Below the pieces are notes generated by a model that did no database searches, was not told the origin of the DNA, and saw only the letters and a program-made list of their open reading frames with translations. A stretch of 11,243 nucleotides of DNA from Sneathiella sp. GTDB lineage: Bacteria > Pseudomonadota > Alphaproteobacteria > Sneathiellales > Sneathiellaceae. The position numbers and the translations under genes were made by a program. The stretch spans positions 1 to 11,243 of the forward strand of contig JAESPT010000455.1 in NCBI GenBank assembly GCA_016765515.1. The letters are read 5' to 3'. Shown piece by piece: positions 1 through 11,243 of this stretch (its first letter is position 1; every line of letters begins with the position of its first letter).

Positions 1-337
1 CAGTATAGGTTCCGTCAAGTTCCCGGCTAATGGATCGCAACGCGATATCTGTCTGCGATCCGTACCCTTCTTCTTCAATAATTTTGGGGCCGAAGCGCAA
101 ATATTTTTCCAGTTTCGCTGCATCAATACTGTCTTCACGTGCCAATAGATCGGCCGTTGTTGCCGTGGCCCGTGCAACAGAATCCGCCACATTCACATAT
201 CGGACAAGCTCCGCACCCATTGCCATTAGAAGAAAAAGCAAGGGAATACAAACAGCTGTTTCAATGGCAACGGCCCCTTTTTCGCCAATTTGACAAAAGC
301 ACCAGTCCGGTATTTTTTTGATTTTCAGGAAATTCAT
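1..337 (-). CDS. TadE/TadF-class pseudopilin, last gene of the tad operon in view (3' end outside window)
   Basis: This reading frame starts at ATG 337, two bases after the stop of the preceding pseudopilin gene, and stays open for 112 codons to the left edge, so its C-terminus is missing. The protein has a charged leader of about 21 residues ending in GEKG, then AVAIETA and a hydrophobic segment (about residues 27-42, with CIPLLFLLMAMG). That is a prepilin-type site: cleavage after Gly21, with Glu at +5 (Glu26) and a following membrane helix. In tad loci such proteins (TadE, TadF) are minor pseudopilins matured by CpaA/TadV and needed for Flp pilus assembly. Position +6 is Thr here, where Flp has Tyr and the neighbouring TadE has Phe. 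The ribosome binding site is weak (a GAG within the end of the upstream gene), which suggests translational coupling. The class is well supported; TadE versus TadF, or a longer TadG-like protein, cannot be decided from this fragment. Confidence 0.85.
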   Translation of the reverse strand, partial: MNFLKIKKIPDWCFCQIGEKGAVAIETAVCIPLLFLLMAMGAELVRYVNVADSVARATATTADLLAREDSIDAAKLEKYLRFGPKIIEEEGYGSQTDIALRSISRELDGTYT

Positions 338-339
338 AA

Positions 340-879
340 TCAGGGCTCGTTCTGGATGACTTTTGTTACAGTGAGAGTTTTGATGTCATTACTCAAAAGA
401 GTATCCAGATAGGGCGTGATCGCGTGCCAATTATAGGTCACACTGTACACAACCAACTGAGAAGTCGCCCCAACCACATCCGTGCCAATAACAGCATTCC
501 CATCCACATAATTGGCAACATCGTCATAAACAGAAATATTCAGGACAAGATCGTCTAGTGAAAGTTCGGTGCCAAAATACCCAGCAATGTATGTTGCGAA
601 ATCGGCCTGAACTTTAGACGCTGTAAGGGCTGTCCTCTCATCGTCATTGCCAACAGTTTGATGATCTCTGGCCACCACCCGGACGACTTCTTGAAGTTTG
701 CTGTCAATATAGTGATATCGCGCCACTTCAATAACAGAGAATAAGGACGCGAATGCAACAGGAAGCACCAAGGCAAATTCCAAGGCTGCAATGCCGCGAC
801 TATCCCGAAAAACAGACCGAATTTGACGAAATGCGACTTTGAGAAAAAGCGCTCTCAGATGTGCGAATTTGATAAACAC
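340..879 (-). CDS. tadE: TadE-family pseudopilin
   Basis: A 179-residue protein with a basic N-terminal leader ending RDSRG, followed by IAALEFALVLP and a hydrophobic helix to about residue 52. Prepilin cleavage is expected after Gly29, with Glu34 at +5 and Phe at +6, the arrangement seen in TadE-like pseudopilins. The remaining 125 or so residues would lie in the periplasm. The start is a GTG at 879. No Met occurs in the early part of the frame, and a GAGG motif lies about six bases upstream, so GTG is the best choice. The gene sits 14 bases after tadD and two bases before another pseudopilin. Inferred role: a minor pilin-like component acting with the Flp pilus, matured by the CpaA encoded upstream. 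The symbol could equally be tadF, because the two families grade into each other; the tad pseudopilin assignment itself is firm. Confidence 0.85.
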   Translation of the reverse strand: MFIKFAHLRALFLKVAFRQIRSVFRDSRGIAALEFALVLPVAFASLFSVIEVARYHYIDSKLQEVVRVVARDHQTVGNDDERTALTASKVQADFATYIAGYFGTELSLDDLVLNISVYDDVANYVDGNAVIGTDVVGATSQLVVYSVTYNWHAITPYLDTLLSNDIKTLTVTKVIQNEP

Positions 880-893
880 CCGATCCTCTTTTC

Positions 894-1736
894 CTAATGT
901 GTGTCTGCAGGTATTGAATTTTCATTGTCAAATAACATGCCTAACTTCGGCCCTGTCGCGCCACTTTTCCGTATTAATTTGAAATATTTGATATTTTCCT
1001 GAACTTCCATTTCTGGAAGATCCGTTCTGGCGATCAGTGCTGCCGCCGTGAAGTCGCCTTTCATGCCATAGGCAAATGACAAATTTTGGCGCATTCGCGC
1101 GGTTGAGTCCGCTGTGAATGCAATGTCTGTGAGGACTTCGATCGCTTCGTCATAATCACCGCTGAGAGCCAGAGACAAACCTAAATTGCTTTTGACACCC
1201 GTGCCATCCGGATCAATTTCCAAAGCCTTCCGATATAGCATCTGCGCTTTGGAACTTTCTCCAATGCCATCATTCGCCACTCCCATTGCAGCAAGAACTG
1301 TGACAGATTGCGGCGCCAGGTTTCGGGCACGCCCTAAATAAACCAGTGACTGATCCGGACTGTGGAGCGCCAACAGCGATCGACCGATCCCCATAATCGC
1401 CGAAACATTGTCATGATCAGACGCCAGGACCAGCTTAAACGTGCTGATTGCATCATGATATGCGCCAATTTCAAACAACGCTGTACCGAGTTTTTCGGCA
1501 ACATCCATATTATTTGAATTGGCATCCAACAGGTTTTTATAGATCCGAACCGCTGTCCGATAATCACCGGCCTCCTGCGCAGAATTCGCCACACTCAAAT
1601 TGGCAGCCAATTTCGGAGATTCTTCACTGCGATCGCCAAACTGTCCCGTTAAAGGTGTTACGCAACCACCAAGGACGACAGCAAAAGTACCGAGTAACAT
1701 AACATGTCTTAAGTGCGGAATAATTTTACTAAACAT
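894..1736 (-). CDS. tadD: TPR-repeat lipoprotein TadD
   Basis: A 280-residue protein with a lipoprotein signal peptide: basic start, hydrophobic stretch, then the lipobox LGGC with the lipidated Cys at residue 25. From about residue 48 it consists of tetratricopeptide repeats, with the TPR spacing of small and aromatic residues visible in segments such as AQEAGDYRTAVRIYKNLL, GAYHDAISTFKLVL and AQMLYRKALEIDPDGTGVK. TadD is the standard TPR lipoprotein of tad loci, thought to be a pilotin-like or assembly factor for the envelope part of the machine. ATG 1736 is preceded by AAGGGA about eight bases upstream. The gene lies 11 bases after tadC and 14 bases before tadE, in the same operon. The order tadB-tadC-tadD-tadE makes the assignment secure, although TPR proteins alone are hard to name. 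Confidence 0.9.
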   Translation of the reverse strand: MFSKIIPHLRHVMLLGTFAVVLGGCVTPLTGQFGDRSEESPKLAANLSVANSAQEAGDYRTAVRIYKNLLDANSNNMDVAEKLGTALFEIGAYHDAISTFKLVLASDHDNVSAIMGIGRSLLALHSPDQSLVYLGRARNLAPQSVTVLAAMGVANDGIGESSKAQMLYRKALEIDPDGTGVKSNLGLSLALSGDYDEAIEVLTDIAFTADSTARMRQNLSFAYGMKGDFTAAALIARTDLPEMEVQENIKYFKLIRKSGATGPKLGMLFDNENSIPADTH

Positions 1737-1747
1737 CAGGCAATCCC

Positions 1748-2761
1748 TTAACTTCCCAATAATTCAAATATTTTGTAGACGCTTGGACCGGCGACAATGA
1801 CCATGACCGTAGGCATAATAAAGAGCATCATTGGAAGGGTCATAATAGCGGGCAATTTTGCCGCTTTGGTCTCCAACCGCACCATTTTGTGCTTTCGGCC
1901 TTCAACAGCGATGGTGCGAAAAGATTGCGCCAGCGGCGTCCCATATTTCTCTCCCTGAGCCAGGATCAAAATAAGTGTTTTCAACTCCTCAACACCGGTG
2001 CGGTTATAGAGGTTTTCCAACGCCTCCCGGCGATCCGGTAAAATACTGAGCTCGGCACTTGTCAGTTCCAGCTCATTGGCCATGGCCTGGTGAGACATCC
2101 GCAATTCTTTTGCCACCCGCAGAATGAGCGTATCAAGGGTCAGACCGGCTTCGGCGCAAATAACCATCAGATCGACAGCGTCTGTCACGCCGTCTTCCAG
2201 ATGCCTGCGACGTCTGTTCGCCAACCCTGCAATAATAATATCGGGTATGTTGCTGGCTGCAATAAAGGCAACAGCCAGGACAACAATGCGAATGACAAGT
2301 GCATCGGCAAACATTTCCCGTGACGCCATAAATAACCAGGCTGAACTGACACCGACTAATGAGCACAAAAACTTCAGGGCGATACCTATGCTGACTGCGT
2401 CCTGCATGCGAATACCCGCATGGATAAGATTTTTCTCCAGTTTTTGACGATCAGATTGGCCATAAATTGGAATTTTTGATGCCAGAAGAGATAAAGGTGC
2501 CAAAATGCGAATAATCGTAGATGTATTATCCTCATCGCCTGCAGATGCATAATTATTTCCCAAAGTGACATTGCTATACTGCCGAGCAACAGGGGACAGC
2601 GCCAAATTTAACCGACGGTCTACAGCATGCTGTTTAAGCGCGTAGCGCCAATAGAAAGCGGATCCAAGTGCAAATACCGCAACAGCGACAAAAAAAGAAA
2701 ATCCAATCAGAATTTGTTCTGAGGAAATTAAGGAAATCCAGTTATTGAAAAATTCCTGCAT
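1748..2761 (-). CDS. tadC: Inner-membrane platform protein TadC (type II secretion F domain)
   Basis: A 337-residue polytopic membrane protein. Hydrophobic segments appear near residues 17-36 and in two stretches between about 110 and 160. A cytoplasmic GspF-type domain follows (about 170-300, with DLMVICAEAGLTLDTLI and the LAQGEKYGTPLAQSFR block typical of TadC), then a C-terminal hydrophobic pair from about 305 to 330. With TadB it forms the inner-membrane platform on which the CpaF ATPase drives Flp pilin polymerisation. ATG 2761 follows the tadB stop by six bases, and its AAGG ribosome binding site overlaps that stop, indicating coupled translation. Length and layout match the family; nothing appears truncated. 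Confidence 0.93.
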   Translation of the reverse strand: MQEFFNNWISLISSEQILIGFSFFVAVAVFALGSAFYWRYALKQHAVDRRLNLALSPVARQYSNVTLGNNYASAGDEDNTSTIIRILAPLSLLASKIPIYGQSDRQKLEKNLIHAGIRMQDAVSIGIALKFLCSLVGVSSAWLFMASREMFADALVIRIVVLAVAFIAASNIPDIIIAGLANRRRRHLEDGVTDAVDLMVICAEAGLTLDTLILRVAKELRMSHQAMANELELTSAELSILPDRREALENLYNRTGVEELKTLILILAQGEKYGTPLAQSFRTIAVEGRKHKMVRLETKAAKLPAIMTLPMMLFIMPTVMVIVAGPSVYKIFELLGS

Positions 2762-2767
2762 GATACC

Positions 2768-3760
2768 TTACCTCACTGATTTCATAAGCATGTAGATGCA
2801 CAGAATACCAACCAGAAGGCTCCCGGCCATATATTGCAACATTAGTTGACCTGTGGAATTTTCAAAAAAGAAGAAAAAGCCGTCCTTATTTGTCATGTAT
2901 AGATAGAGGCCAAACAAAAAAGGAATTGCAGAAATTATTGACGCTGAAACCCGCACCTCGGATGTTGTCGCTTTAACCTTCTTTTTCAGCAAATTCCGGT
3001 CGCGAAGCAATTGAGACAGGTTATCCAGTGTCTCTGCTAGCTGCCCACCTGTTTCACGTTGCAAGAGCAAAGTGACAGAAAAAAACCTCAATTCCGGTAA
3101 ATCTATTTCTCGAATACCACCCTCCAGGGCAGGCGCCAAATCGACACCAATTTTCAAGCGATCTGCGATGCGGGCAAAAACAGGGCCAATCGGAGCCGGT
3201 ATTTCTTCGCCTATGCTTCTAATCCCCTCTGCAACAGGGACACCCGCGCGAGCGCCACGGCTTATGATCTCCAATGCATCCGGAAAATAATTATAAAAGG
3301 ATTTTACAGCCTGCCCCGCCCTGAAATGAATAATGCTGACTGTGACAGCAGGCGCTGTTCCTGCAAATAATCCAATCCCGTTCAGAAATCCAATACCGAA
3401 ATAAACCGATAACAGGCCGATTAAAATTGCGGAACCGAAAGATGAAAAGACAATCACGCGTATTGCCAGTTCCCGACCACCGGCCAGAGCCGTCCGGGTT
3501 TCGACAAACGCCATAACTTTTTTCCAAAGAAAATGCTGATCCTTTTCATCTCGAAAAACATTTTCAGACGAACCTGCATTTTTGCCCATTGCCTGGTATC
3601 CGGTGACCATGCCCAGCCGTTCATTGATACCAGTCTGATTTCTCTGGTGGATTGATAACCAGGCGAAAAAGATGGATCCGACAAAGGCAAGTCCAATAAA
3701 GGCTGTAAATGCAATTATATCAGCGATAGCAAAATCAAAGGAGGAGAGCCATTCGATCAT
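2768..3760 (-). CDS. tadB: Inner-membrane platform protein TadB (type II secretion F domain)
   Basis: A 330-residue membrane protein, paralogous to TadC. Hydrophobic segments lie near residues 12-35, 102-145, 271-290 and 308-326. The GspF-type cytoplasmic domain spans about 155-265 and contains FPDALEIISRGARAGVPVAEGI and LLLQRETGGQLAETLDNLS, both highly characteristic of TadB. It partners TadC in the pilus motor platform. The start ATG overlaps the cpaF stop by four bases (ATGA, 3757-3760), and an AGGAAG motif lies about eight bases upstream. The overlap points to fixed stoichiometry with the CpaF ATPase. Length is normal for the family (just over 300 residues). Confidence 0.95.
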   Translation of the reverse strand: MIEWLSSFDFAIADIIAFTAFIGLAFVGSIFFAWLSIHQRNQTGINERLGMVTGYQAMGKNAGSSENVFRDEKDQHFLWKKVMAFVETRTALAGGRELAIRVIVFSSFGSAILIGLLSVYFGIGFLNGIGLFAGTAPAVTVSIIHFRAGQAVKSFYNYFPDALEIISRGARAGVPVAEGIRSIGEEIPAPIGPVFARIADRLKIGVDLAPALEGGIREIDLPELRFFSVTLLLQRETGGQLAETLDNLSQLLRDRNLLKKKVKATTSEVRVSASIISAIPFLFGLYLYMTNKDGFFFFFENSTGQLMLQYMAGSLLVGILCIYMLMKSVR

Positions 3761-5142
3761 GCGAATGCTTCCTGCAGGGCATCGGTTAATCCGTAATATT
3801 GAGCTTGTTTGTAAAATTTCGGCCGAATACCACTCGCTAAAAATTCCCCGGCCAAAGTTCCGTCTGCCATCTCCTCTTTATAGTCATAAGTAAAGAGATC
3901 CTGGCTGACAATCACATCCCCTTCCAGTCCGACAACTTCAGTAATAGACGTTACCCTGCGGCGGCCATCTCGCATGCGCTCCAGATAAATTATGAGGTCA
4001 ACAGCACTGACGATCTGACGTCGAAGAGCAAGGATTGGCATCTGCATTGTCCCCATCAACATCATGTTTTCCAGGCGTATCAATGCATCCCGAGCAGAAT
4101 TGGAATGGATTGTTGACATACTACCCGAATGTCCCGTGTTCATTGCCTGCAGCATATCAAAGGCTTCGGCGCCTCGAACCTCGCCAATGATTATGCGGTC
4201 AGGGCGCATGCGCAGGGCATTTCGGAGCAAATCCCGCTGCGTAACCTCACCGGCACCTTCAATGTTTTGCGGACGTGTTTCAAGGCTGATCACATGAGGC
4301 TGCTGAAGACGTAACTCCGCGGCATCTTCAATGGTGACAATGCGCTCCCGTCGGTCAATCATGGCGGACATGGCATTCATCATCGTTGTTTTGCCAGACC
4401 CTGTCCCGCCAGCAATTATTATATTCAACCGGATACGAGCACAAATTTCTAACAACCGAGCCATGCCTTTGGACAGACTGCCAGAACGGGCGAAATCATC
4501 CAGCAACAAAGAATCTTTGGGAAATTTTCGAATGGAGATACACGTTCCTTTTAGCGCCAGCGGCGGCCCGACAACATTCACCCGGCTGCCATCAGCCAGT
4601 CGGGCGTCAACCATTGGACTGCTTTCATCAATGCGGCGTCCAACACGAGAAGCGATACGTTGTGCTATTCTCAGAACGTGAAGGTCATCCCGGAAGGTAA
4701 TATCCGTTTCCTCGATAATCCCATTGCGTTCAACAAACACGCTATTCGGTCCATTGACCATAATGTCGGCAATTGTGTCATCCTTCATCAAAGGCTCGAT
4801 TGGCCCCAGTCCCAACATGTCATCCAACATTTCAAGAGCAATCGCTTCCTGCTCTTTCTGATTCAATTGCAGGCGCTGTTCGCTGGCAATATCACCAACG
4901 GCTTTGTTAATCTGTGCCAGGAGTTGGTCAGAATTTGTACGGGCCGCGACAGTCGGATCAATGCGTGCAAGAAGCGCCTCTTGAATGGCATCCCTGGCGA
5001 AATTGGATTTTGTAACAGTGTCATTGCGCGCGGAGACCCGGTCTCCACCGGAGGTCATCAGGTTTATCGGCGAAGAGCCAGCTGTTCCACCCGTGATCTC
5101 TCTTGGCTCAGTTAAGAGGCTTTTTTCCTTTTTTCCAAACAT
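3757..5142 (-). CDS. cpaF: Flp pilus assembly ATPase CpaF/TadA
   Basis: A 461-residue hexameric-type secretion ATPase (VirB11/GspE superfamily) that powers Flp pilus extension, and probably retraction, from the cytoplasmic face. All core motifs are intact: Walker [10 protein letters not shown] at residues 245-253, the Asp box around VTIEDAAEL (269-277), the Walker B region [12 protein letters not shown] (316-327) and the His box [13 protein letters not shown] (337-349). The first hundred or so residues form the variable N-terminal part. ATG 5142 shares one base with the cpaE stop (TGATG) and is preceded by a strong purine-rich site (GGAAGGG). The downstream end overlaps tadB. This is the best conserved gene of the operon. 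Confidence 0.97.
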
Positions 5143-6356
5143 CAGCCCTTCCTTCTTAATACGTCTAATAACCGGCGCGGTTTAATAACTGCATTTCCAA
5201 CGAGACCATGAGCTAATTTCCGGACTGCTTTTGTCGCCGTTCCATTCTGCATTGAAAAAGGTTTTCCCATGACGGAAGCCTGGATTCCGGCTGTTTTTGC
5301 GTAAGGAATTTCATAGTCGACCTTGCGGTTGAGAGCCGCTTCGATTTTAGTCAGTTTCAGGGCACCCCTTTGCGGCGGTAGAATATTATTCAGGACAAGG
5401 AGTGTTCGACCATTTGGGTTGCCCGTATCCAATTCATTTATATATCTGGCGGCATCCCGGACCGAGGCAATATCTGAAGTAACCACAACAATTCGCAAAT
5501 CTGCGCTCTTGGCAACTTCCATCATGTCACTGTTAATCAGGGATGGCATGTCCAGCCCAACATAATGGAACTGTTTCTGAAGGGCGCGAACCAATTCATT
5601 GACTGCGTTCGCTCGCAATTCTGTTGCCGACCCCAGTGGTTCTTCGGAAGATAATATTCGAAGCCGTTTCCCCACCGTGATCATCGCACGCTCAAGAAAC
5701 AAAGGGTCCAGCCTATCACTGTTATGCAGGATTTCACTGAGACCCTGATTGGATTTCTGATTGAATGATAATCCAAGCGTCCCTGATTGCAGATTAAGGT
5801 CAATCAGGGCGACCCGGCGACCCAGATCTTCTGCAATTAACCAGGAAATATTACTGAGAAGTGTTGTGGCTCCAACGCCCCCGCGTGCGCCAAGAATAGC
5901 AATTACTTTTCCTGCCCGTTGCCTGGCTTGGGATAACGGTAGAATTCCCAAAGCCTGGTGCAGAGAACGGCTGAATAGATCATAAGGCAACGGTTTTGCC
6001 AGATAATCCTGTATGCCCATTTGCACAAGATCCCGGAACAGTCCGATATCGTTGCGTTTTCCAATAACAATCACTTGAACACTAGGTTCACAGACATTGG
6101 CAAGGCTCTCCAGATCATTCGCCGGAAAGTCAGACGCACTCACATCTACGATCAAAACCTTGGGAGATTCATGGTCGGTGAAAAATTTAATGGCATCCTT
6201 AAGGGATCCACGGGCAACCACAGAGTTATTTTGCCCCAAACGGCGCAAATACTCTGCGATAACCGTTTCAGTTTCTCCGTCATCGATAAAAGCAATAACT
6301 TCACGATATTCTGCAGTATCTGCAGATCCGTCGACTGGTTTAAGTGCAATAGCCAT
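5142..6356 (-). CDS. cpaE: CpaE/TadZ pilus localisation protein (receiver-like plus MinD-like ATPase domain)
   Basis: A 404-residue protein with two parts. The N-terminal 15-140 region is an atypical receiver domain with an acidic pair (IDDGET, about residues 25-26), an Asp at the expected strand-3 position (LIVDVSA, about 71) and a Lys at the strand-5 position (LAKPLP, about 121). The usual Thr/Ser after strand 4 is replaced (VIVIGK). From about residue 149 follows a MinD/ParA-like domain. Its Walker A is GARGGVGATT (about 156-165), lacking both lysines of the KGGxGKT consensus, a degeneration known in CpaE/TadZ proteins. ALIDLNLQSGTLGL forms the following block. CpaE places the Tad machine in the cell, often at a pole. 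ATG 6356 is preferred over the adjoining TTG codon 6359; it lies 13 bases after the cpaD stop. The gene overlaps cpaF by one base. Confidence 0.93.
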   Translation of the reverse strand: MAIALKPVDGSADTAEYREVIAFIDDGETETVIAEYLRRLGQNNSVVARGSLKDAIKFFTDHESPKVLIVDVSASDFPANDLESLANVCEPSVQVIVIGKRNDIGLFRDLVQMGIQDYLAKPLPYDLFSRSLHQALGILPLSQARQRAGKVIAILGARGGVGATTLLSNISWLIAEDLGRRVALIDLNLQSGTLGLSFNQKSNQGLSEILHNSDRLDPLFLERAMITVGKRLRILSSEEPLGSATELRANAVNELVRALQKQFHYVGLDMPSLINSDMMEVAKSADLRIVVVTSDIASVRDAARYINELDTGNPNGRTLLVLNNILPPQRGALKLTKIEAALNRKVDYEIPYAKTAGIQASVMGKPFSMQNGTATKAVRKLAHGLVGNAVIKPRRLLDVLRRKG

Positions 6357-6369
6357 CAAACTCGTTCCG

Positions 6370-7005
6370 TTAATTATTCAGAAAATTGGATGTATTGGAA
6401 TCTGGAAGAGGTTTCAGTTTGTCCGAATAATATCGGCGCACTGCATTAACCGCTGTTTGGCCACTGGCCATATCCAAAGACCGCCCCCGAACCAGGTCCC
6501 TGGGATTAACCAGTGTAAGGGCTAGATTTCGGTCTACGGAGCAACCCAGATTGCTGCTGTTTCGATTACTGCTATTTATCAGATTCCCATTACTCCAATC
6601 TGTGCATTCAGCAAGATTAAGCAGAAACTGGTCTACCCTGATTGTGACCGTGGAAGGTATTTCATTAGCCTCGAAAGGGGTTAATCTGATTTGTGTCGGT
6701 TCAATTCCGAGATTCTCTAATAAAGAGACCACATGATCAGCTGACTGCGGATCTGGTGACAATACCCAGACTTCGGCATTCCTGTTGACACTGATATTTT
6801 CAAGAAATACGTCTAGTTTTTCTTTGCTGCCTGCGGTAGGCTGACGCTGTAGCATCTGAAGGTTAATCTGGTGGCTTACCAGCTCAACGATTGCCGGTTT
6901 TGCTCTTTCTTCGGAGGACCATTTTGCAATTTCTCCAGTGCAGCCACCGACAGTAACGGTGGTCGCCAGCGCCAGGGCAATTACAGTATTTTTTTTGCTC
7001 ATCAT
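6370..7005 (-). CDS. cpaD: CpaD-family pilus lipoprotein
   Basis: A protein of about 211 residues with a lipoprotein signal peptide (MMSKKNTVIALALATTVTVGGC, with the lipobox Cys at residue 22). The mature part contains the block AEVWVLSPDPQSADHVV and a conserved-looking C-terminal region (about 150-195), including CSVDRNLALTLVNPRDLV, as in alphaproteobacterial CpaD. It is thought to be an outer-membrane or periplasmic partner of the CpaC secretin, filling the place of RcpB in other tad loci. The start is uncertain: ATG 7002, 7005 and 7014 are all possible, as is GTG 7041, which would overlap cpaC. ATG 7005 was chosen because AGGA at the cpaC stop lies about 11 bases upstream; 7014 is only two bases from that site. 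Position between cpaC and cpaE supports the name. Confidence 0.85.
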   Translation of the reverse strand: MMSKKNTVIALALATTVTVGGCTGEIAKWSSEERAKPAIVELVSHQINLQMLQRQPTAGSKEKLDVFLENISVNRNAEVWVLSPDPQSADHVVSLLENLGIEPTQIRLTPFEANEIPSTVTIRVDQFLLNLAECTDWSNGNLINSSNRNSSNLGCSVDRNLALTLVNPRDLVRGRSLDMASGQTAVNAVRRYYSDKLKPLPDSNTSNFLNN

Positions 7006-7018
7006 CACGGTCATATTC

Positions 7019-8437
7019 CTAATAGTAAAAACCGGCAGCACCGTTCAAGCGAACTCCGCCTGGCCCCATTGTCGTCCGCAGTGTTGGAGAAACCCCGGGG
7101 CGAGCAACACGATTTTCGAATATTCTCTCCAAATCAGAAGAGGGTCGATAGGCTGACATAGGCGTTGAATATTGGTTTGTTTCGGTAGGTTCAACCACAT
7201 ATGCGGTTGCAATGACCACCAGTTCCGTTTCGTTTTTTTGAAAGGAATCAGACCTGAACAAGGACCCCAGAATTGGAAGGTCTCCCAGTCCTGGAAATTT
7301 GGAAACAATACTTCGGGTATTATTTTGCAACAGTCCGGCAAGAGCAAAACTCTGACCACTTGCAAGTTCGATCGTCGTTTCTGTCCGTCTTGCCGACACG
7401 GCCGGAATAGAGAAACCGTTCAACACGATGGCCCCTTCACTCGACAATTCACTCACTTCTGGACGAATGCGCAGCGAAATACGATTATCGGACAGGATTG
7501 TCGGAACAAAATCCAGAATGACGCCGAATTTCTTAAACTCGATAGTAATCTCGCTGCCATCCTGATTGATCGGAATTGGAAATTCACCGCCGGCAAAAAA
7601 GCTGGCGGTTTCTCCAGAGACAGCGGTCAGGTTTGGCTCAGCGAGAACAGACACCACGCCTTCTTCCGCCAGAGCATCAATCACGGCGGTTGCGGACATA
7701 TTTGAATCGGAAAATCCGATCCCTGCGCTGCCACCGTTTAACGCTGTCAGGCTGCTGTTGGCCACAAACGAACCTGCACCGGCCGTGATAGGGTTTCGCC
7801 CCGTCAATAGGCCGACTGCAAAATTGCCGGGTGAAAGTATGACATCCCAATTGATACCGAATTCGCGGGTCACTTCCCGGGACATCTCGGCGATGCGTAC
7901 CCGAATATTCACCTGGTTGGATGCGGTTATTTTAAGTTGGTTTATCACGCCTACGTCTTCGCTGATATACCCCTCAGCAATAGAAAGGATAGCTTCGGCA
8001 ACGTCAGCACTTGCAACGGATCCTCGAATGAAGATCCGACCTGGCGTAGAACTGATGGAGACATTGACTTTGGGAAACTTACCGTGAATTAGTTCAGTCA
8101 AATCACTGTAATCCCGGAACACTTTTATGACTTTCTCAAGAATTATCTTCTCATCTTTATCAAGCGCATAAAGTGTTGTTTCACCCACCTGTTGCGCCAG
8201 GATAAAGATATTGCTGGCAGAAACAGTCTGAATATCCGCGATTTCAGGATTAGCGATAAAAATCTGCTTTGCCGGGCGCAGAAGAGTGACAAGCGTCCCC
8301 TTGTTTATTTCAAGTCTAAGTTTTCCCTCATCGGCGACGGAGTATCCGCCTGCTGCCAGCGTAAGAACACACGCTAACAAAAGAGAGACAGACTTTCTCC
8401 GCAAATGTTCCAACGCTTTTGTCATGTGATACAGCAT
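7019..8437 (-). CDS. cpaC: Outer-membrane secretin CpaC/RcpA
   Basis: A secretin of about 472 residues that forms the outer-membrane channel for the Flp pilus. A signal peptide covers about residues 1-35 (basic LRRK, then a hydrophobic core, cleavage near SVA-DEG). Next come the N-terminal pilus domain (about 40-110, LEINKGTLVTLLRPAKQIFI), a BON-like domain (about 120-165, GRIFIRGSVASADVAEAIL) and the secretin core (about 180-417). The hallmark FPGLGDLPILGSLFR is at about 381-395. The start is ambiguous: TTG 8452 and ATG 8437 are in frame, and ATG 8425 follows closely. ATG 8437 is favoured because a GGGG run lies nine bases upstream, whereas TTG 8452 has almost no space after its GGGG. The gene follows cpaB closely and its stop precedes cpaD by 13 bases. 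Confidence 0.95.
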   Translation of the reverse strand: MLYHMTKALEHLRRKSVSLLLACVLTLAAGGYSVADEGKLRLEINKGTLVTLLRPAKQIFIANPEIADIQTVSASNIFILAQQVGETTLYALDKDEKIILEKVIKVFRDYSDLTELIHGKFPKVNVSISSTPGRIFIRGSVASADVAEAILSIAEGYISEDVGVINQLKITASNQVNIRVRIAEMSREVTREFGINWDVILSPGNFAVGLLTGRNPITAGAGSFVANSSLTALNGGSAGIGFSDSNMSATAVIDALAEEGVVSVLAEPNLTAVSGETASFFAGGEFPIPINQDGSEITIEFKKFGVILDFVPTILSDNRISLRIRPEVSELSSEGAIVLNGFSIPAVSARRTETTIELASGQSFALAGLLQNNTRSIVSKFPGLGDLPILGSLFRSDSFQKNETELVVIATAYVVEPTETNQYSTPMSAYRPSSDLERIFENRVARPGVSPTLRTTMGPGGVRLNGAAGFYY

Positions 8438-8455
8438 GAATTTTTTCCCCAACCC

Positions 8456-9364
8456 CTATTGTGCTTTTTCATCCGCACGACTATTGATTGTCTGACTGTT
8501 ACTGCCGCGGATGACAATGAGCTCATCCGCTTTCTTCTTCTGCGCCTGTGCAACTCTGGGCGGCCGTCGAAATGCTTCCGATACATCCGCTCCCCAGGTT
8601 GGTTTTAGGGCGACGTCCCTATCTCCGGTTTTCACAGTGTCCGCAACTAAACTGCGCAGGCTCAGCGACAATTCTCCAATACGGGCGGCGACGTTAACTT
8701 TTTCTGCCTGCGCTGGGCTAACCTCCAGTGTCGCCGTGCTACTCACTCTTTCACTTGTTTCCAGGTCCGCGTCTGCAAGATTTTCAACATCTCGTCCCAT
8801 CGCGATCACTCTGATATTCTGCATGATTGTCTCGGCGAGCATTTGATAGCCTATATCGCCGCCATCACCGTTTCTGTGACGTCCGCGCTCCCCTTGTGTT
8901 AAAATTACATCCACATGGTCCCCCGGATTAACCAGACCTGCATTACCAGTGACCGCATTAATTGAAACAGAGACGGCCCGTTTTCCGCTACGCAAGACTG
9001 CGGCCAGAAATCCGCGTTGTCCGGGTTTGACCAGATTGGCGGCTGTGAGTGGGTCCCCTTTTTTGATCGTGCGTCGGGCCACGGCGCCAATTAACTGATC
9101 TCGGCTGATGACTCCCCTCAGCAAATGCTGTGACAGAACAACCTGTCGTTCTGTGGATTTCCAGGTCATATCTTCAATGTGAAGAAATGCTCCAACCTCA
9201 AGGTCAGCAGCGGAAATAAGAATTTTGACCAGTTCAATTTCCTGAACCGGTTCTGTCCGGACAGCCGCTTGCGCCGTTGGTGTCAGTACATACCGAATAC
9301 CCGCGACGATACCCCCGCCAAAAATGACAAAAGCCAGAAAATAGACAAATATTCGCGTTATCAT
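8456..9364 (-). CDS. cpaB: Flp pilus assembly protein CpaB/RcpC
   Basis: A 302-residue protein with an N-terminal membrane anchor or uncleaved signal (about residues 4-26) and the rest in the periplasm. Residues 45-112 form a SAF (antifreeze/flagellar P-ring chaperone-like) domain, with VKILISAADLEVGAFL and RRTIKKGDPLTAANLV. An RcpC-type domain follows (about 120-240, with GKRAVSVSINAVTGNAGLVNPGDHVDVILT). CpaB works with the secretin CpaC and may link it to the inner membrane or peptidoglycan. ATG 9364 has a GGAGGA site about five bases upstream, one of the best in the operon. The C-terminal tail (from about 260) is charged and low in hydrophobic content. Confidence 0.95.
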   Translation of the reverse strand: MITRIFVYFLAFVIFGGGIVAGIRYVLTPTAQAAVRTEPVQEIELVKILISAADLEVGAFLHIEDMTWKSTERQVVLSQHLLRGVISRDQLIGAVARRTIKKGDPLTAANLVKPGQRGFLAAVLRSGKRAVSVSINAVTGNAGLVNPGDHVDVILTQGERGRHRNGDGGDIGYQMLAETIMQNIRVIAMGRDVENLADADLETSERVSSTATLEVSPAQAEKVNVAARIGELSLSLRSLVADTVKTGDRDVALKPTWGADVSEAFRRPPRVAQAQKKKADELIVIRGSNSQTINSRADEKAQ

Positions 9365-9388: not shown

Positions 9389-9910
9389 CTACCCAGACAC
9401 AGTGATGCTATGTAAAATCGCCATTCCGCCAGTTGCAATAGCCACCCCGTAAGGCAATTCAATACCTTTGATGTCGCTGACAAAGAAAGTTGGCGCCGGT
9501 TTGCTGAACGCGGTTTCAAAAAACCAGTTCGCCCCGATCAATACCGCCGGGCTTTTGAACAACAGTACCGGCATCAAATAAACCAATCCCAGCACACCGC
9601 CCGCCAACGTTGTGATTATCGTCAGCGTGAAGAAATGCTCCGGCCCGGCCCAGAAGGCGAGGGCGGCAAATAACTTTACATCCCCGCCGCCGAACCAGCC
9701 CAAGGCATAGAGGATCAGCCCTGCGATAAAAACACCGCCGCCAACAAGGAGATGACCGGGCGCTTCCGTCCAGAGCCCGTTCAAGACAATATGCAACAGG
9801 AACAGACAAAACACGGTGAGAGACAGCGCGTTTGGGATGAGACGAAACCGTACATCCCAAAGAGCAGCTCCCAACAGAAGCAAACCGGTGCAAAAAATAG
9901 TGACAAGCAT
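9389..9910 (-). CDS. cpaA: Prepilin peptidase CpaA/TadV
   Basis: A 173-residue polytopic aspartic peptidase (type IV leader peptidase family, short form without the methyltransferase half) that cleaves the Flp pilin and the TadE/F pseudopilins at the inner membrane. The two catalytic aspartates are visible: Asp19 in WDVRFRLIPN and Asp77 in the GGGD motif followed by VKL. Hydrophobic segments lie near residues 2-17, 29-45, 55-72, 78-110 and beyond. The start ATG 9910 lies 46 bases after the pilin stop, with only a weak GAG upstream. Residues 40-70, between the two catalytic Asp, are duplicated in inverted orientation at 10591-10683, in the scar beyond the pilin. The intact gene itself shows no damage. 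Confidence 0.95.
   Translation of the reverse strand: MLVTIFCTGLLLLGAALWDVRFRLIPNALSLTVFCLFLLHIVLNGLWTEAPGHLLVGGGVFIAGLILYALGWFGGGDVKLFAALAFWAGPEHFFTLTIITTLAGGVLGLVYLMPVLLFKSPAVLIGANWFFETAFSKPAPTFFVSDIKGIELPYGVAIATGGMAILHSITVSG
9701..9793 (-). repeat. Inverted repeat, left arm (inside cpaA)
   Basis: These 93 bases, encoding cpaA residues 40-70, match 10591-10683 in opposite orientation at 88 of 93 positions. The two arms bracket 9794-10590, which includes the cpaA 5' end, the pilin gene, its leader and the integrase fragment. Confidence 0.9.
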
Positions 9911-9947
9911 TTGTTTTTATCGCTCAATCAAATTTCTTCATTCAATC

Positions 9948-9968
9948 GCGCTTACTTTAAGTGAGCGC
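9948..9968 (-). other. Hairpin over the pilin stop codon
   Basis: In the minus-strand transcript these 21 bases can form a hairpin: a five-pair outer stem (GCGCU with AGCGC), one C-A mismatch, three inner pairs (ACU with AGU), and a three-base loop that is exactly the UAA stop codon of the pilin gene. No U-run follows, so it is not a standard intrinsic terminator. It could stabilise the 3' end of a short pilin mRNA or attenuate read-through into cpaA, which would fit the usual need for far more pilin than machinery. This is inference from sequence alone. Confidence 0.4.
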
Positions 9969-10121
9969 AGCAGCAAGTTTCGCAGACATAGCTGTCGCAA
10001 AACTACCAGTGTCAGAAAATACTGTCGTAACGATAGCACCAATTGCACCAGCCAAAATGGCATATTCAATCGCAGATACACCGCGTTCGTCTTTCATAAA
10101 TTTGGTCAGAAACTTAGTCAT
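9957..10121 (-). CDS. flp: Flp-type pilin (major pilus subunit)
   Basis: A 54-residue prepilin, the expected size for Flp/PilA of tad systems. The leader MTKFLTKFMKDERG ends in Gly14. The mature protein begins VSAIEYA, with Glu at +5 and Tyr at +6, the Flp signature, and continues as one hydrophobic helix (AILAGAIGAIVTTVF) and a short tail. CpaA should cleave after Gly14, and the subunit is polymerised by CpaF with TadB/TadC. ATG 10121 is chosen over a longer in-frame extension to 10223 because GGAGAG lies four bases upstream and the extension has no pilin character. It is the first gene of the operon. A stem-loop covers its stop codon, and a 46-base gap separates it from cpaA, which may allow separate, higher expression. 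Only one pilin gene is seen in this window. Confidence 0.95.
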   Translation of the reverse strand: MTKFLTKFMKDERGVSAIEYAILAGAIGAIVTTVFSDTGSFATAMSAKLAAALT

Positions 10122-10125
10122 ACTA

Positions 10126-10131
10126 CTCTCC
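10126..10131 (-). promoter_or_regulatory. Ribosome binding site that sets the pilin start
   Basis: GGAGAG on the minus strand, four bases before ATG 10121. It decides the short 54-residue form against the longer in-frame reading from 10223. Confidence 0.75.
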
Positions 10132-10396
10132 AAGGTATTATAAATTGCGGAATCAACTCCGTAGAATTGGAACAATATGAAACTAAATGTAAAAATTTCA
10201 CTAATTTGAGTGCAACTTTTCAAACATATTAAACATAATGATATCTATTAATTAGTGTATTATATAATATCTAATATATTAAATAATACTTGAAACGTTA
10301 TGATCAACGCAGTTTTGAAAGGCTCCAAAGCGGGTGGAAAGACCTATAGATATAACCGAATAACAAAATGAAAAGTTTGGTGAGTCAGTTTGAGAA
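10132..10396 (-). promoter_or_regulatory. AT-rich leader and likely promoter region of the pilus operon
   Basis: This stretch upstream of the pilin contains no credible gene. Positions 10221-10290 have only 9 G/C in 70 bases, far below the surrounding genes. A minus-strand TATAAT lies at 10259-10264, but the hexamer 17 bases upstream of it (ATTATT) is a poor -35 box, so no promoter can be placed with assurance. A transcript from there would have an untranslated leader of about 130 bases. Small dyads are present: CACT/AGTG at 10199-10212, and CGGA/TCCG just upstream of the ribosome binding site. Such an AT-rich tract could bind nucleoid proteins or a regulator. Positions 10330-10396 show nothing I can identify. 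Confidence 0.4.
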
Positions 10397-10588
10397 TTAC
10401 GGGAAATAAATGAATTTTAAGCCAATACTGTCAAATGGATCGGTAATTTCGGATTTCTCAAGCCACCCTTGCAACTCCAGCACAAGACAAAAACCTACCT
10501 TCCTACAGGGAATTCTAATCTTTCGGTCTTCACCCACCTGATCGGTCTTGGATTTAGTGATGGCAATGAACAGTCCTTGTCTGGCGGT
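10397..10588 (-). pseudogene. Tyrosine recombinase (phage-type integrase) fragment
   Basis: Read on the minus strand, this gives about 63 codons ending at TAA 10397-10399. The translation contains TARQGLFIAITKSKTDQVGE, then DRKIRIP, LELQGWLEKSEITD and PFDSIG. This matches the central part of the catalytic domain of tyrosine recombinases, where a beta-hairpin reads I-T-x-S-K-T-D-Q-x-G-x-x-R-x-I-x-I-P, followed by a W-L-E-x-x-x-I-T helix. The lysine of SKTD is probably the catalytic beta-hairpin lysine. The first catalytic Arg, the HxxR motif and the nucleophilic Tyr are all absent. The 5' side is cut off by the cpaA fragment at 10591, and after PFDSIG the sequence becomes unrelated. The fragment cannot be functional. 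The family call rests on remembered motifs and would need a profile search. Confidence 0.6.
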
Positions 10589-10590
10589 TT

Positions 10591-10683
10591 CATATTGTCT
10601 TGAACGGGCTTTGGACGGAAGCGCCCGGTCATCTACTTGTTGGCGGCGGTGTATTTATTGCAGGACTGATCCTCTATGCCTTG
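10591..10683 (+). pseudogene. Fragment of a second cpaA, inverted copy of part of the intact gene
   Basis: The plus strand encodes 31 consecutive residues, beginning HIVLNGLWTEAPGH and ending GLILYAL, identical to residues 40-70 of the intact CpaA. The DNA agrees at 88 of 93 positions with the reverse complement of 9701-9793. All five differences are silent third-codon changes (Leu, Leu, Val, Ile and Gly codons). Similarity stops sharply at both ends: TGG CGG TTT precedes it and AAA CAT TTA follows, and an in-frame stop lies upstream at 10567-10569. The piece lacks both catalytic Asp residues and has no start signal, so it is a relic. Silent-only divergence suggests it came from a cpaA that was once functional, in a second tad locus or a related strain. 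Confidence 0.88.
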
Positions 10684-10834
10684 AAACATTTACGTCATAG
10701 GTGGTGGGGCTAGCCATAATAAGAACTTTGATGCCATGTGAAGAGGCATAATTAATCACTTCAAAGACATCTTTTAGAGTGGATTTCTCACCGGCCTTCT
10801 TAGGCACTGGACTCAGTGAACTGGCCGTGTAGGG
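10684..10834 (-). pseudogene. Unrecognised coding remnant
   Basis: On the minus strand an open frame follows a TAA at 10835-10837 and runs into the cpaA fragment. It reads SLSPVPKKAGEKSTLKDVFE, then VINYASSHGIKVLIMASPTT and YDVNVS. The alternation of charged helix-like and hydrophobic strand-like segments (GIKVLIMAS) looks like real protein, but no family is recognised. No start codon with a ribosome binding site is present, and the frame closes shortly after entering the cpaA relic. It probably represents an interior piece of a lost gene. Chance openness over 50 codons is possible, so confidence is low. Confidence 0.35.
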
Positions 10835-10869
10835 TTAGCCCCGCGACATCATTCTTCTAAGGGAAAATT

Positions 10870-11243
10870 ATGGCACAAGGTAGAACTCCCCTTAAACTGG
10901 CCATCGCCGGATTTGGGGCAATTGGATTGACTGTTGCACGATATGTTGATGAGGGCCGGATACCGGGTATGAAAGTGACAGCGGTATCAGCGCGCGACAC
11001 TGGCAAGGCCATCAGAAATTTGGCGGAATTTAGATCAAAACCACAAGTATTGCCTTTGCACCAATTGGCAGACGTCGCCGACATCATCCTTGAATGTGCG
11101 CCTGCTGCCGTTTTCGAACAAAGCGCCCGCCCAACAGTTGAACAGGGGAAAATATTTGTCCCGTTATCTGTGGGGGCGTTGCTCAACCATATGGATCTGA
11201 TAGAGCGGGCGAAGGAAACAGGGGCAAAGATAATGGTGCCGAC
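10870..11243 (+). CDS. nadX: L-aspartate dehydrogenase, NadX-like (3' end outside window)
   Basis: The first 124 codons of a gene that continues past the right edge. The N-terminus has a Rossmann nucleotide-binding motif, GFGAIG, at residues 14-19 after a hydrophobic strand (LKLAIA). Later blocks, DIILECAPAAVFEQ, VPLSVGALLNHMDLIERA and AKIMVP, are typical of aspartate dehydrogenases, which oxidise L-aspartate to iminoaspartate with NAD(P)+. Iminoaspartate can feed quinolinate and NAD synthesis in place of NadB, or the enzyme may serve in amino-acid breakdown. The start ATG 10870 has AAGGG six bases upstream. It is transcribed away from the pilus operon and separated from it by the scar, so no functional link with the pilus is implied. 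The active-site half is not in view. Confidence 0.85.
   Translation, partial: MAQGRTPLKLAIAGFGAIGLTVARYVDEGRIPGMKVTAVSARDTGKAIRNLAEFRSKPQVLPLHQLADVADIILECAPAAVFEQSARPTVEQGKIFVPLSVGALLNHMDLIERAKETGAKIMVP

Follow-up and report, generated by a model that had tools for sequence, protein, structure and literature searches.

The window analyzed here, a stretch of 11,243 bp that is one whole contig (C455), carries an intact gene for the prepilin peptidase CpaA and, inverted about 0.8 kb away, a broken 93-base piece of a cpaA that differs from the intact gene at five positions, all of them silent. The reading that we favor, tentatively and at somewhat less than an even chance, is that this relic may preserve, as a local inverted copy, an older allele whose place in the middle of cpaA was later taken, through recombination, by sequence from a close relative.

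The tad/Flp locus and the cpaA relic

The contig belongs to an assembly of 2.39 Mb, split into 475 contigs, for which the listed completeness is 56.6% and the contamination value 0.13. Its minus strand carries a tad/Flp cluster in the order flp, cpaA, cpaB, cpaC, cpaD, cpaE, cpaF, tadB, tadC, tadD, and two TadE-like genes. The families found consecutively and on the same strand were the Flp pilin, an A24 peptidase, RcpC/CpaB, a secretin, CpaD, a ParA-like CpaE, a T2SSE ATPase, two T2SSF proteins, and TadE-like genes, with cpaE and tadD named by position and domains; transcription as a single operon is predicted. The intact cpaA (9389..9910, minus strand) encodes a prepilin peptidase of 173 aa (Pfam Peptidase_A24, E 1.7e-15). 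The flp gene (9957..10121, minus strand), encoding a pilin of 54 aa (Pfam Flp_Fap, E 3.8e-9), lies between the two cpaA copies. The remainder of the operon, from cpaB to the first TadE-like gene (340..9364, minus strand), and the second TadE-like gene (1-337, minus strand), which runs off the contig, were assigned from open frames and family matches. At the other end of the window, the start of an aspartate dehydrogenase (nadX-like) gene (10870..11241, plus strand) also runs off the contig; the 124 residues present matched NF009825 at E 5.3e-34 with 118 bits, which is under the curated cutoff of 253, and only weak matches to this gene start were seen, in 2 of 23 congeners. The gene order flp-cpaA-cpaB-cpaC-cpaD-cpaE-cpaF-tadB-tadC-tadD-tadE is that of a Tad/Flp (type IVc) pilus locus with a CpaA/TadV prepilin peptidase, from which the window differs in having an inverted cpaA relic upstream of flp.

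In a repeat search of the window, a single inverted pair reached 30 nt or more (9701-9797 and 10587-10683; 97 nt, 94% identity). The relic proper (10591..10683, plus strand) corresponds to codons 40 to 70 of a cpaA, is inverted relative to the intact gene, and is broken at both ends. Alignment base by base to the matching segment of the intact gene (9701..9793, minus strand) gave 88 matches in 93 bases and 31 identical residues out of 31. The five mismatches, at 10611, 10635, 10653, 10659, and 10665, are all silent and at third positions (from cpaA to the relic, CTC>CTT, CTC>CTA, GTT>GTA, ATC>ATT, and GGG>GGA), which bears out the preliminary description of this copy. The homology is beyond chance at both the nucleotide level (E 5.9e-36 by self-BLAST of the window and 20 sampled contigs) and the protein level (E 1.3e-14). 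With 31 of the 173 codons, homology that ends at 10590 and 10684, and an open frame of 47 codons only, the relic is, as judged from its sequence, a dead fragment that would make no plausible protein and has no predicted present function. A self-search also revealed a separate set of repeats on contig C9 of the same genome (L104, 1714-2326), namely, three direct copies of 48 to 59 nt with 92 to 98% identity.

Sequence flanking the relic

The relic is abutted by another piece of sequence at each end. The first is a piece of a tyrosine recombinase of about 51 codons (10439..10591, minus strand; ends approximate), itself broken at both ends. The frame at 10415-10597 (minus strand) matched a protein of 1 of 23 congeners (G008; 52% over 52 aa, E 1.2e-12), and the recombinase piece was 42 to 46% identical to three plasmid integrases. 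The G008 relative, of 358 codons, matches Pfam Phage_integrase, and the naming of the piece rests on this full-length relative and the three integrases; searched by itself, the piece reached E ≤ 1 with no family of Pfam, NCBIfam, or PHROGs and had no PDB or phage match. The alignment with the G008 relative placed conserved Glu-Thr codons at 10586-10591, from which it was deduced that the cpaA homology begins at about 10591 and that the junction shares 1 to 2 bases. The three extra matching bases at 10587-10589 and the nonsilent mismatch at 10590 thus lie in codons of the recombinase piece, the Glu-Thr pair being shared by the piece and its relative, and the boundaries first proposed for the relic look right.

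At the other end, an open frame of about 50 codons without a convincing match (10684..10834, minus strand) abuts the relic. The full open frame on the minus strand, 10661-10834, has 58 codons, and the cpaA homology stops inside it, at 10684. Searches with this frame gave no match in Pfam, PHROGs, plasmids, or the 23 congeners, a single NCBIfam match at E 0.05, and a best PDB match at E 0.35. A search of the class gave matches in 24 of 385 genomes at E ≤ 0.1, the window's own genome included, with a best other E of 0.005. Five of the class loci were inspected; one (L047) aligned at 47% over 34 residues, the others gave no useful alignment, and the 171-codon frame at L047 was read as a STAS-like protein.

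The region 10120-10880 was searched for a target-site duplication or the terminal repeats of an inserted element, and short repeats of 10 to 18 nt only were found. The left junction of the relic has a 12-nt inverted match to the flp leader (10172-10183), which was rejected as within chance, a match of this kind arising somewhere in 75 of 400 first-order random sequences of equal length. No tRNA was found in the window, no Rfam match in 9600-11243, and no promoter or terminator consensus in 9900-10900.

Silent differences between the two copies

The 93-base segment contains 24.7 silent sites, so that the silent divergence of the two copies is about 0.24, while the replacement divergence is zero. 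A neutral duplicate had been expected to collect changes at all codon positions. If every change is placed in a neutral relic, the probability that all five are silent is 0.0013 to 0.0041, depending on the transition and A+T bias assumed; if the gene branch is allowed to add silent changes only, it rises to 0.013 to 0.031. The five of five silent changes go against that expectation (P 0.0013 to 0.031 overall), but with only five changes the pattern is weaker than the preliminary wording implied.

For two functional alleles, the corresponding probability is 0.26 at an omega of 0.11 and 0.09 at an omega of 0.22. The first omega is the median for the whole gene and the second the value for segment 40-70; both come from a set of 10 stand-alone cpaA genes, out of the 12 found in congeners. 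Pairs with a dS of at least 1.5 were dropped, which left 20 of 45 pairs for the whole gene (25 dropped) and 32 of 45 for the segment (13 dropped). A Poisson count at an omega of 0.2 gave a probability of 0.04 for no replacement between functional alleles. With equal, simple site counts on both sides, a silent-only pattern is 7 to 20 times likelier between functional alleles than between a neutral relic and a constrained gene, and the ratio is still at least about 3-fold if mutation bias is granted to the neutral side alone. The earlier proposal that the fragment diverged under coding selection is thereby moderately favored over neutral decay, and both copies probably diverged mostly under such selection. 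We regard the silent-only pattern as moderately informative, useful but not decisive, five changes being few.

Residues 40 to 70 are otherwise variable: 12 of the 31 are changed in the nearest known protein, whose overall identity is 71%. The two alleles must then be close, and they are taken to be those of sister strains or species.

Base composition of the two copies

The third-position G+C content (GC3) of the intact cpaA is 0.62, compared with 0.33 for flp and 0.43 to 0.50 for the other tad genes, and after correction for amino acid content it is 3.9 standard deviations high. The excess is concentrated in codons 27 to 146 (9473..9832, minus strand), the candidate overwritten tract, where GC3 is 0.70 versus 0.46 in other tad codons. 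In a scan along the operon, this tract had a z of 5.28, a value reached in 0 of 2,000 simulations; the model assumes independent codons, and since the best z outside cpaA was 3.19, the real noise is larger and the simulated P is too small. Codons 1 to 30 and 151 to 165 are at or below expectation, and codons 46 to 60, inside both the tract and the relic span, have exactly the expected GC3 and are not discordant. The difference between the GC3 of cpaA and that of its neighbors is +0.16 here versus −0.11 to +0.08 in 17 congeneric tad loci, a comparison that omits G020 (L080) and G010 (L083) and in which the neighbors were cpaB and cpaC only for the 11 short loci. Elsewhere in this genome, 20 contigs were sampled for open reading frames of 150 codons or more, and none of the 72 obtained reached a GC3 of 0.62 (mean, 0.455).

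The relic, by comparison, is typical of the operon, with a GC3 of 15/31 (expected, 15.05), while the opposite segment of the gene has 19/31, or 1.5 standard deviations above expectation. These values point to the intact gene, rather than the relic, as the changed copy, a reading whose strength comes from the whole tract, the segment by itself being weak. The proposal that the local gene had been replaced thus gained ground, the atypical GC3 being that of the intact cpaA and not of the relic; the discordance of the tract with the operon is one of composition only. Codon usage at the five differing sites (lnLR, −0.69) slightly favors the codons of the gene over those of the relic. Of the five changes, four alter the G+C content, and in each of these the relic has the A or T, a pattern that AT-biased decay would also give.

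cpaA genes in the genus

The cpaA genes found in congeners, whether linked to tad genes or stand-alone, encode proteins 26 to 48% identical to that of the window. Two types of tad locus were recognized, with cpaA genes 32 to 39% identical to the window's (best tblastn stretch), and the stand-alone lineage reached 43 to 48%. The nearest proteins found were 66 to 71% identical (P0003 to P0006). In a tree with rough bootstrap values, the window CpaA grouped first with four metagenomic proteins (99/97) and next with the stand-alone clade (98/92). Searches of the present genome, 57% complete with an estimated 43% missing, found one cpaB and no third copy of cpaA beside the intact gene and the relic. 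Among the 23 congeners, 13 have two cpaB matches and 12 have a stand-alone cpaA.

The arrangement of these genes was compared at the stand-alone cpaA loci (L051 to L061) and at the cpaB genes of first-type tad loci (L063 to L083). The latter represent 21 congeners, from 22 with any cpaB match; G013 was excluded as a weak match of the other type. No cpaA was found next to cpaB, in the interval from flp to cpaB, in 9 of the 21, and all nine carry a stand-alone cpaA of another lineage elsewhere. The other 12 keep cpaA by cpaB (G010 by a weak partial match), and 2 of these also have a stand-alone copy. At 11 of 12 stand-alone loci, no tad genes were found at E 1e-3 in the surrounding 4 to 15 kb (the contig of G013 was too short), with the exception of one 36-codon cpaD match taken as chance. 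All 11 loci share at least one of seven neighboring genes with the locus of G021, whose neighbors we take to be SNARE-associated, DsbB, Coq7, EmrE-like, and glycosyl- or methyltransferase genes. It seems that in nine congeners the tad peptidase was relocated or was replaced by an unlinked one.

Origin of the relic

Under the favored reading, a break near flp would have been repaired with scraps, which included a recombinase piece and a stretch of the local cpaA in inverted orientation. Either end-joining or a template switch could have dropped the fragment, along with mobile-element debris, at a distance of about 0.8 kb from its parent. We infer this step, and with it a local origin, from the nearness of the two copies, their orientation, and the short overlap at the junction; if the genome measures about 4 Mb (size taken from congeners), a random landing as near to cpaA as 0.8 kb has a chance of about 0.0004. 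Homologous recombination with a close relative would later have overwritten the center of cpaA, roughly codons 27 to 146, and this step and its place in the order of events are suggested by the GC3 and the silent differences. The putative donor allele would have carried silent differences only in the comparable stretch and would have had a higher third-position G+C content. The relic, a short segment on the opposite strand, would have escaped overwriting and would keep the old bases. Several points count against such a replacement of the gene: the changes are few, and functional alleles in this variable stretch would often show an amino acid replacement; the simulated P for the tract is too small; the GC3 of the gene segment opposite the relic is weak evidence; codons 46 to 60 are normal; codon usage at the five sites leans, weakly, toward the gene; and AT-biased decay would likewise put A or T in the relic.

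The most serious competitor, though an unlikely one, is that it was the relic that came from outside: a piece of cpaA from a close relative would have entered, possibly with mobile debris, and been joined beside the native gene. Such an import would account for the silent-only differences and for the adjoining recombinase piece, the neighborhood is not conserved (the flanking 10870-11241 has its weak matches in 2 of the 23 congeners), and the codon usage at the differing sites slightly favors the gene's codons as native. Random landing, however, leaves the distance of 0.8 kb from the native cpaA unexplained, and it is the relic that has operon-typical GC3 and the intact gene that is atypical. 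Nor did the sources of such an import yield a candidate: the relic protein had no match in the plasmid collection at E ≤ 1, and no cpaA relative was found in viral contigs with six peptide patterns and one DNA pattern.

A plain local inverted duplication in neutral decay, whose first five changes were silent by luck, is also improbable in our estimation. The copy lies near its parent, five events are few, and the four changes that affect G+C run toward A or T in the relic, the direction expected of mutation. It is the low probability of five silent changes, whether in the relic only or with silent changes in the gene as well, that weighs against it.

A chimera of amplification or a mixed-strain assembly that placed another strain's cpaA stretch at this position would be an artifact, and we think this quite improbable. 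Amplification chimeras are often inverted, and the assembly is fragmented into 475 contigs and 57% complete. The junction overlap of 1 to 2 nt and the distance of 0.8 kb would also fit, given that such chimeras are reported to join chromosomally nearby parts through short overlaps (PMC4595205). A chimera would copy its template, yet five differences are present; moreover, the relic has other pieces at each of its ends, and the listed contamination is 0.13.

A past second tad locus, raised in the preliminary description as one possible source, was rejected as the donor. In this version, the genome would once have carried another tad locus, almost the same in sequence, of which the relic is what remains, and extra copies are indeed common in the genus, as the cpaB matches and stand-alone cpaA genes show. 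The congeneric cpaA genes found are nevertheless far too divergent to have given 31 identical residues, and the search for a second locus that had been suggested ended with one cpaB and no further cpaA, in a genome of which 43% is estimated to be missing. We consider this origin very improbable.

Finally, the inverted arms enclose flp and cpaA codons 1 to 39, and rare inversions between them could in principle switch this whole stretch, the flp leader included, between an off and an on state. The peptidase gene would then have supplied, through duplication of a part of itself, the arms of a pilus switch, and flipping would put both arms under coding selection in turn and so leave silent-only differences. 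We find such a working switch scarcely credible, as the arms share exact runs of only 20, 23, 17, 5, 5, and 18 nt, the recombinase beside the relic is present as a fragment only, and only one orientation was seen. Bacterial recombination is reported to need no more than 30 identical bases in a block (PMC8918686); against this figure, the longest run of 23 nt suggests that exchange between the arms would be rare at best, though a run of that length could still allow it.

Significance of the relic

Local duplication followed by partial replacement of the parent gene, our favored reading, would combine features of two known kinds of sequence. The relic resembles other bacterial gene relics from partial inverted duplication in being a short, broken coding piece near its parent, beside mobile debris and without a plausible reading frame of its own; it differs from them in its silent-only differences and in that the parent, rather than the relic, is compositionally atypical. 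The intact gene resembles a mosaic gene produced by homologous recombination in having an intragenic tract unlike the operon with gene ends that are near normal; it differs in that the mosaic would be deduced from its composition and from the fossil that the other allele has left nearby. A literature search turned up nothing on such a relic, from which we do not claim that none is in print.

If the favored reading is true, the relic records an allele of a pilus gene from before its partial replacement by recombination, and the replacement of an allele would be visible within a single genome, without the donor. No new mechanism or system is involved. The relic is a small genomic fossil and, on that reading, would be a useful example of allele turnover in a locus for a surface structure.
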